DNA from: an uncultured Methylophilaceae bacterium
GTDB lineage: Bacteria > Pseudomonadota > Gammaproteobacteria > Burkholderiales > Methylophilaceae
Reading direction: 5' to 3'
Length of the DNA stretch: 32,995 bases
NCBI GenBank assembly: GCA_903849185.1
Contig: CAINIH010000080.1
Location: forward strand, 1-32,995
Part shown: piece by piece, positions 23,030 through 25,908 of the stretch
Layout of the letters: every line of letters starts with the position of its first letter
Numbering within the stretch: position 1 is the first letter of the stretch
Translations under genes and position numbers: made by a program
The notes under the pieces: generated by a model
Database searches by the model: none
What the model saw: only the letters and a program-made list of their open reading frames with translations
Told to the model about the DNA's origin: nothing

Positions 23030-24559
23030 ATGTGTGGAATCCTTGGAATAGTCGGTAAAAATCCTGTTAATCAGCTACTTTATGATGGCTTATTAGTTCT
23101 TCAGCATCGCGGTCAAGACGCTGCTGGCATTGTTACCTGTGACGGTAATACTTTCTTCATGCACAAAAATAATGGCCTTGTGAAGGATGTCTTTCATACC
23201 CGCCATATGCGAAATCTTATCGGTAATGCTGGTATTGCGCATGTGCGTTATCCTACTGCTGGTTCATCCTCTGCTGCTGAAGCTCAACCTTTTTATGTGA
23301 ATTCACCTTTTGGTATTGTTTTAGGCCATAACGGAAATCTAACTAATGCCGAAAAACTTAAAGAAGATATCTTTAGGCAAGATCTTCGTCATATCAATAC
23401 CACATCAGATTCAGAAGTTTTGCTTAATGTGTTAGCGCACGAAATTGAAGAGTCTTCAAAAAGTAGCGTACTTAATAGTGATGTCGTTTTTGATGCTGTT
23501 ACTTCACTTCATAAGCGATGTAAAGGCGCATATGCTGTTGTATCAATGATTGCTAATTTCGGCCTGCTTGCATTTAGAGATCCTCATGGTATTCGCCCAC
23601 TTGTGATCGGTAAACACGAGACTTCACAAGGTGTTGAATATATGGTGGCGTCTGAGAGTGTAGCGCTTGATGTATTAGGATTTAAATTAGTAAGAGATGT
23701 CGAACCAGGTGAAGCAGTATTTATTGATATGAATGGTAATTTTTATTCTAAACAATGCGCAAAGCCTAATCATCATCCTTGTATATTTGAGTATGTATAT
23801 CTTGCAAGACCCGATTCTGTCATTGATGGTATTTCTGTGTATCAAACACGACTTAATATGGGCAAAACCTTAGCGCAAAAAATTAAGAAAGCTTGGGCAC
23901 ATTTAGATATCGATGTCGTTATTCCCATACCTGATACAAGTCGTCCTAGCGCATTACAACTTGCTCTGGAATTAGGCCTTGATTACCGCGAAGGCTTTAT
24001 TAAGAATCGTTATATTGGCCGTACTTTTATTATGCCTGGTCAAGCGCTGAGAAAAAAATCAGTGAGACAAAAATTAAATCCTATTAAGATTGAATTTCAA
24101 GATAAGAATGTGCTGTTAGTTGATGATTCAATTGTAAGAGGTACAACATCAAAAGAAATTGTTCAAATGGCAAGAGAGGCGGGCGCTAAAAAGGTTTATT
24201 TAGTCTCAGCCGCACCCCCTGTCAGATTTCCTAATGTGTATGGCATTGATATGCCTTCACGTACAGAATTATTGGCACCCAATAAAACAGATGAGGAAAT
24301 TCGAGAAGAGATCGGAGCGGATGAATTAATTTATCAAGATCTTGATGCGCTCATTGAGAATATTGCATCAATCAATCCAAAACTTAAAAAATTCGATGCT
24401 TCTTGTTTTGATGGCAAATACATTACAGGCGACATCGATGAATATTATTTAAAAAATATTGAAACGCTTCGTGCGGACTCTAATAAATCCGACAAGCCTT
24501 CAAATGCAAGTACGCAAATGGATTTAAATTTAATTAAAAATGAAGAGGAAGCTGCTTAA
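23030..24559 (+). CDS. purF: Amidophosphoribosyltransferase
   Basis: [10 protein letters not shown]-terminal Ntn hydrolase start and PRPP motif [18 protein letters not shown]. Confidence 0.98.
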
Positions 24560-24572
24560 CATTAAGCGTTTC

Positions 24573-24600
24573 TTGACGTATTTTTTTTATCGTGCATAAT
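24573..24600 (+). promoter_or_regulatory. Candidate sigma70 promoter TTGACG-N16-CATAAT driving the riboswitch/metZ transcript
   Basis: -35 TTGACG at 24573-24578, -10 CATAAT at 24595-24600, 16-nt spacer. Predicted start falls at the 5' edge of the aptamer. Confidence 0.7.
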
Positions 24601-24604
24601 TCAA

Positions 24605-24673
24605 AGTGCGCTGATTTGAGTGATAAGTTATTTCTCAGCTTGCGGGCGCGTTAAAAATACTGCTAAAGCGAGG
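24605..24673 (+). ncRNA. SAM-II (metA-type) riboswitch aptamer
   Basis: AGTGCGCTGATTTG...CTTGC..GGGCGCGTTAAAAATACTGCTAAAGCGAGG matches the remembered SAM-II pattern GCGCUGAUUU...UUGC..GCGCGUgAUAAAU..GCUAAA..GG. P1 pairs 24605-24611 with 24646-24652 (7 bp incl. GU). Pseudoknot P2 pairs CTC-A-GCTT (24634-24641) with AAGCGAG (24666-24672). Located directly upstream of metZ. Confidence 0.88.
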
Positions 24674-24678
24674 TCTGT

Positions 24679-24711
24679 CCCGTTTTAGCTTTTTGTGAAA
24701 CGGGTTTTTTT
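24679..24711 (+). terminator. Intrinsic terminator of the SAM-II attenuator
   Basis: CCCGTTT (24679-24685) pairs with AAACGGG (24698-24704), followed by TTTTTTT (24705-24711). Confidence 0.9.
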
Positions 24712-24735
24712 ATACCCAAAAAAAGGTAACAGACT

Positions 24736-25908
24736 ATGAATAACGACTCATGGAAATTTGATACACAAGCTATTCGAGCAGGCTCATTACAATCTGAGTT
24801 TGGTGAGAATTCTGAAGCTATCTTTTTAACTTCTAGCTATGTATTTGATTCATCTTCCCAGGCTGCCGCAAGATTTGCTGGTAATGAGCCTGGTAATATC
24901 TATTCTCGTTTTACAAATCCTACCGTCACCATGTTTCAAGATCGTCTTGCAGCTCTTGAAGGCAGTGAAGCATGTGTGGCAACTTCAAGCGGTATGTCAG
25001 CTATTTTGGCAACAATTATGGGCTTATGTTCTGCAGGCGACCATATCGTAGCATCGCGAAGTATTTTTGGCACGACCGTTCAACTCTTTAGCAATATTTT
25101 AAAGCGCTGGGGTTTGGAAGTGACTTTTGTGTCGCTTACTAATCTTAACGAATGGGAAGATGCCATACAAAAAAACACAAAACTTTTCTTTGTGGAGACC
25201 CCATCTAATCCATTAACTGAAGTAACTGACATCAAAGCACTCTCAAAAATTGCACATCAAAAAGATATTAAATTGGTGGTTGATAATTGTTTTTGTTCGC
25301 CTGCACTTCAAAGACCTTTGTTGTTTGGTGCCGACATCATTATTCATTCAGCCACTAAATATATTGATGGCCAAGGACGTTGTTTGGGCGGTGCTGTATT
25401 AGCAGATAAAAAAACGATAGAGCCGATTTATCAATTTTTACGAACAGCAGGCCCTACGATGAGCGCTTTCAATGCATGGGTCTTTTTGAAAGGCTTAGAA
25501 ACATTATCTATTCGTATGGACGCACATTCCAAGAACGCACTTCATTTGGCTTCATGGCTTGAATCTCAGTCTCAAGTAGATCGAGTTTACTATCCTGGAC
25601 TGGCTTCGCATCCACAGCATAAACTTGCTTTAACCCAGCAAAAAACTGGCGGTGCTATTGTGTCCTTTGAGGTAAAAGGCAGTCAAAAAGAGGCTTGGAG
25701 CTTAATTGATTCGACCCGTTTAATCTCTATTACGGCTAATTTAGGGGATGTGAAATCTACAATTACGCATCCTGCAACTACAACGCATTCAAGAGTAAGC
25801 CCTGAAGAACGTCAAAAAGCTGGCATTAAAGATAACCTCGTTAGAATCGCTGTAGGCCTTGAGGATATAGAGGACCTAAAAGCCGATTTGTCTAGTCTTT
25901 CGCGCTAA
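24736..25908 (+). CDS. metZ: O-succinylhomoserine sulfhydrylase
   Basis: Cys/Met metabolism PLP enzyme (ADIIIHSATKYIDGQGRCLGGAV). SD AAAAGG upstream. metZ rather than other family members is inferred from position after purF and from sequence character. Confidence 0.9.
   Translation: MNNDSWKFDTQAIRAGSLQSEFGENSEAIFLTSSYVFDSSSQAAARFAGNEPGNIYSRFTNPTVTMFQDRLAALEGSEACVATSSGMSAILATIMGLCSAGDHIVASRSIFGTTVQLFSNILKRWGLEVTFVSLTNLNEWEDAIQKNTKLFFVETPSNPLTEVTDIKALSKIAHQKDIKLVVDNCFCSPALQRPLLFGADIIIHSATKYIDGQGRCLGGAVLADKKTIEPIYQFLRTAGPTMSAFNAWVFLKGLETLSIRMDAHSKNALHLASWLESQSQVDRVYYPGLASHPQHKLALTQQKTGGAIVSFEVKGSQKEAWSLIDSTRLISITANLGDVKSTITHPATTTHSRVSPEERQKAGIKDNLVRIAVGLEDIEDLKADLSSLSR

Follow-up and report, generated by a model that had tools for sequence, protein, structure and literature searches.

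The gap between purF and metZ in this Methylophilaceae genome raises the question of whether metZ has a SAM-sensing switch of its own and, if so, how that switch would act. In the window, the whole 32,995-nucleotide stretch of DNA analysed, the purF stop (24559) and the metZ ATG (24736) enclose a promoter, an aptamer-like stretch, a terminator hairpin and a Shine-Dalgarno (SD)-like site, which the initial annotation had read as a SAM-II riboswitch. Our analysis makes it highly probable that a transcriptional SAM-II riboswitch controls metZ and is OFF with SAM. The identity of metZ is supported by two families, NCBIfam NF006003 (698.8 bits, cut-off 522) and TIGR01325 (587.1 bits, cut-off 510), and NCBIfam likewise confirmed the identities of purF, folC and gyrA (downstream of metZ). 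The features of the leader are as follows.

24573–24600, plus strand: sigma-70-type promoter, TTGACG-N16-CATAAT, 10/12 consensus matches
24607–24612, plus strand: P1 5′ strand, UGCGCU, partner 24645–24650
24613–24618, plus strand: L1, GAUUUG (alignment A1)
24618–24636, plus strand: hairpin inserted in L1, GAGUGAU-AAGUU-AUUUCUC
24634–24643, plus strand: P2 5′ strand, CUC(a)GC-UU-GC, pairs with 24662–24672
24644, plus strand: P1a nucleotide G24, partner C at 24660
24645–24650, plus strand: P1 3′ strand, GGCGCG, partner 24607–24612
24662–24672, plus strand: P2 3′ strand, GCUAAAGCGAG (alignment A1); 24662–24670 also antiterminator 5′ half
24679–24714, plus strand: intrinsic terminator, CCCGTTTTAGCTTTTTGTGAAACGGG plus U tract
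24681–24689, plus strand: CGUUUUAGC, switching segment common to the terminator 5′ arm/loop and the antiterminator
24718–24726, plus strand: SD-like AAAAAAAGG, read from the sequence, outside the aptamer
24736–25908, plus strand: metZ, O-succinylhomoserine sulfhydrylase

Aptamer structure and pocket

SAM-II was defined in 2005 by P1 and P2, with a promoter close by and frequent terminators (PMC1273637). Barrick and Breaker (2007) predicted the SAM-II-specific P1a pair and mentioned beta-proteobacterial SAM-II with terminators (PMC2258182). Every SAM-II structural feature that we tested, namely P1, the P2 pseudoknot, P1a and the pocket, was present in the metZ leader, where the aptamer spans about 24606–24674. 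All 13 of the pocket nucleotides listed as completely conserved in SAM-II (PMC3764141) were found: U10, U11 and U12, of the pocket base triples, at 24615–24617 in L1; U20, U21, G22 and C23 at 24640–24643 in the P2 5′ strand; and G42, C43, U44, A45, A46 and A47 at 24662–24667. The leader thus resembles SAM-II (RF00521 SAM_alpha; PDB 2QWY) in P1, the H-type P2, P1a, the pocket, the promoter just upstream and the terminator downstream, but differs from typical members in an L1 hairpin insertion of about 12 nt, a score below the family cut-off and a beta-proteobacterial lineage. The inserted hairpin has an MFE of −3.3 kcal/mol (z −3.1 versus shuffles), and the CUC at its 3′ end shares positions with the outer P2a strand; L1 inserts of unlike sequence occur in some other Methylophilaceae genera. 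SAM-V has a near-identical binding core and fold, but is translational and is found in marine alpha-proteobacteria and Bacteroidetes (PMC6061858).

The helices are maintained in relatives. Across 58 distinct sequences, which share ancestry and are not independent, P1, P1a and P2 together are 95.2% paired, and pairing falls to 28–54% when the 3′ partners are slid by 1–3 columns. P1 is paired in 97.1% of cells, with four of its six pairs changed on both sides, and P1a (24644–24660) is G-C in 52 sequences, A-U in five and something else in one. Doubly changed cells number 37 against 13.3 expected, a count that none of 500 shuffles reached. P2 has nine pairs in the window and is paired in 93.5% of cells in relatives, but its inner six pairs are invariant, partly because the search pattern enforces this, and they therefore lend no covariation support. 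The minimum-free-energy fold of the bare leader lacks P1, the nested folding program being unable to represent a pseudoknot, and the folding energy of the leader is unremarkable against shuffles (z −1.32).

Model scores, relatives and the metXZ RNA

A default Rfam scan of the window, at gathering thresholds, returned no match to any family. At relaxed thresholds RF00521 matched the metZ leader end to end (24598–24689) with 26 bits and E-values of 3.4e-4 (221 nt against all of Rfam) and 0.051 (window). This falls short of the 36-bit gathering cut-off, which is a score threshold and not a structural feature. Over the whole 1.3 Mb genome the leader was the best RF00521 match (E 4.7e-4), the runner-up scoring 13.7 bits (E 1.0). 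The SAM-II long-loop family RF01726, which shares the SAM-II core and has an enlarged L1, scored lower than RF00521 on the leader, with 19.4 bits against a cut-off of 44. Weak Rfam matches to anti-hemB, PyrR, mir-154 and HIV-1_SL4 were set aside as chance or terminator resemblance. The initial annotation had proposed a significant RF00521 hit with P1 and P2 as its check and covariation of both helices in homologous metZ leaders as a further one. Its SAM-II assignment holds, given the best match in the genome, the full set of pocket nucleotides and the covariation of P1 and P1a; the hit is full-length and contains both helices, but stays under the curated cut-off, and P1 covaries while the P2 pseudoknot is present but mostly invariant.

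The low RF00521 score probably results from the L1 hairpin insertion together with lineage divergence. The orthologous metZ leader of Novimethylophilus, of the same family (L010/L040), scores 36.9 bits, above the cut-off, and its short L1 is the obvious difference from the leader in the window. The same insertion and low score are signs of divergence that could point to a SAM-II-derived aptamer with a shifted ligand, such as SAH or another SAM analogue. Such a shift is very unlikely, since all reported SAM-contacting residues, U11 and U21 at the sulfonium among them, are unchanged, and the controlled gene belongs to methionine biosynthesis.

To search beyond the Rfam model we used two lineage-aware models: R1, whose training included Methylophilaceae members, and R2, built from 38 aligned elements, all from outside the family. 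In the window's genome R2 found the metZ leader with 52.8 bits (E 2.9e-12; runner-up 17.3 bits); the loci used to train both models had been located with a pattern derived from the motif of this family, which leaves RF00521 as the sole fully independent result. Among 150 Methylophilaceae genomes RF00521 gave matches at E ≤ 0.01 in 37, only two of them above the cut-off, and R1 found the element in 136; across the order R2 had matches in 86 of 120 genomes. The named relatives, Novimethylophilus, Methylotenera, Methylobacillus and HTCC2181, assign the window to this family. The gene 3′ of the element is metZ-like by BLAST in 66 of 144 cases, a family that also includes related sulfhydrylases, and at other loci it is metX, metH or metK, judged from N-terminal sequences. 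Six SAM-II-like elements (L075, L106, L112, L132, L147 and L194) lie directly before metK, as read from the N-terminal sequence.

An RNA of this kind has been described before. Leyn et al. (2014) reported a ‘metXZ’ RNA before metX or metZ in beta-proteobacteria, with six conserved regions, a pseudoknot, a terminator and a speculative antiterminator, at sites that include three Methylophilales and Nitrosospira metZ (PMC4239095). By its description it agrees with the window's element in taxa, genes and topology, and the two appear to be the same RNA. Its authors regarded one conserved region as unpaired and made no connection with SAM-II (PMC4239095); a search of the openly available literature found no paper linking the two. 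Their Rfam SAM_alpha scan was positive only in alpha-proteobacteria, and they termed metXZ novel, which would favour a separate RNA class. We consider this still less likely than a change of ligand, since the helix and pseudoknot topology, the pocket and the P1a pair are those of SAM-II and some beta-proteobacterial loci exceed the RF00521 cut-off, reaching up to 52 bits; a cut-off effect would account for the link having been missed in 2014. That the leader holds just an ordinary intergenic terminator of the purF unit, with a chance likeness to an aptamer, has a negligible probability: operon-end terminators are common and the folding energy is unremarkable, but the R2 E-value, the covariation and the presence of the element in most genomes of the family all speak against it.

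Promoter, terminator and antiterminator

The promoter boxes, TTGACG at 24573–24578 and CATAAT at 24595–24600, are separated by a 16-nt spacer. In relatives, TTGAC occurs within 60 nt upstream of the aptamer motif GATTTG at 112 of 143 loci, compared to 3.9% of background windows, and at a distance of 40–45 nt in most loci. This near-fixed spacing indicates that the aptamer begins where transcription should. Downstream, the terminator hairpin (24679–24704, 9 bp, −10.9 kcal/mol) is followed from 24705 by a tract of seven U/T, and it is the only terminator-like site in 24400–24900.

The P2 3′ strand contains GCUAAAGCG (24662–24670), which is complementary to CGUUUUAGC over 9 nt with one G-U. In folds of the growing transcript GCUAAAGCG pairs with CGUUUUAGC once the latter has been made. 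The resulting antiterminator, GCUAAAGCGAGGUCUGUCCCGUUUUAGC, has a folding energy of −12.8 kcal/mol versus −10.9 for the terminator, and over the full leader the two states are closely balanced (−29.9 versus −27.7). Both structures need 24681–24689, so they are mutually exclusive. We compared the 122 riboswitch loci whose terminator could be recognised, which are related and not independent events but include several proteobacterial lineages, to 837 unrelated terminators from the same records: when GCUAAAGCG was paired with the 5′ arm and loop of the terminator, the duplex energy had a median of −8.3 kcal/mol versus −4.0 in controls (p 5.8e-31), and the full 9-nt complement was found at 50 of the 122 but none of the 837. 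Pairing of GCUAAAGCG with the terminator 3′ arm was not enriched in the same comparison. A rival antiterminator between CAGCUUGCGGG (L1/P1 3′ strand) and the terminator is enriched too, yet controls also pair well; it stays an alternative, one that is likely important where the terminator loop has AAGCUG and not UUUUAGC (L011, L022). In the genus to which the window belongs, UUUUUGUG comes after the antiterminator hairpin (24662–24696 in the window), and this hairpin might itself work as a weak terminator.

Judged by sequence and energy, the leader thus has the two parts that define a transcriptional riboswitch, a terminator and a mutually exclusive antiterminator. The predicted antiterminator pairing, a mechanism absent from the initial annotation, is well supported. 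The annotated promoter and intrinsic terminator were found where it had placed them, the promoter at a position conserved in relatives, and the SD lies outside the aptamer, which ends at about 24674; the conserved antiterminator pairing supports its choice of termination over SD sequestration. The claim that metZ is independently SAM-responsive needs qualifying: metZ has its own promoter, but the stretch from the purF stop to the aptamer contains no terminator, and transcripts that run on from upstream genes would therefore cross the switch as well.

How the switch would bind SAM, in which direction it would act and where transcription would start and stop are inferred as follows. Transcription would begin near 24607. 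When SAM is scarce, GCUAAAGCG would pair with the emerging CGUUUUAGC, and the antiterminator would block the terminator and let metZ be transcribed. When SAM is plentiful, it would bind the H-type pseudoknot through U11, U21, U44, A47 and other residues and keep GCUAAAGCG in P2. Thus CGUUUUAGC would stay free and the terminator would form, stopping RNAP near 24711 and leaving a leader RNA of about 105 nt; a ligand that holds GCUAAAGCG in P2 would favour the terminator, as expected of an OFF switch. The metZ SAM-II of Sinorhizobium meliloti, an alpha-proteobacterium unlike the window's host, is similar in that the aptamer precedes metZ and termination is predicted; its RZ sRNA of about 100 nt increases under high SAM (PMC9373788).

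Related leaders and implications

Several related leaders depart from this layout. In genus g15, five metZ leaders (L185, L186, L187, L188 and L190) carry a diverged SAM-II without a recognisable terminator, and their P2 3′ strand, CUGAGGA, includes an SD-like GAGGA, a sequence feature suggesting that control has moved from transcription to translation. Three others of this genus (L189, L191 and L192) have diverged differently: they combine CAGATTGC with either GCTAAACCG or GCTAAATCG and keep a terminator with CGTTTTAGC; metZ starts about 200 nt downstream. In the window's genus, locus L193 has a second SAM-II-like element (418–467) with a much shortened loop from P1 to GCUAAA and its own terminator, before an ORF of about 109 residues that lacks an NCBIfam match. 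Tandem SAM-II elements occur at L049, L057, L063, L086 and L144 (Halomonas/Billgrantia) and at L058, L117 and L138; the first aptamer is mostly followed by a terminator, and the second (CGCCGA[T/G]TTAAG...) lies 99–147 nt downstream. At the Halomonas loci the leader past the second aptamer can pair with the GGAG SD. Tandem SAM-II with mixed mechanisms has been reported previously (PMC9481103).

We conclude that the metZ leader is a real but diverged SAM-II with a lineage-specific L1 insertion. A broader reading, towards which we lean only modestly, is that the metXZ RNA forms a large SAM-II branch largely under the Rfam cut-off, in which the SAM-binding strand serves as the antiterminator, that the Methylophilaceae gained the L1 hairpin, and that some OM43-type relatives appear to have lost the terminator and moved to control at the ribosome site. 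Default Rfam thresholds miss SAM-II in nearly the whole methylotroph family (2/150 genomes versus 136/150 with a lineage-aware model). A SAM-binding strand that doubles as a conserved antiterminator explains how a pseudoknot could govern termination, and for the methionine genes of beta-proteobacteria a so far orphan regulatory RNA gains a concrete and readily testable candidate ligand and mechanism.
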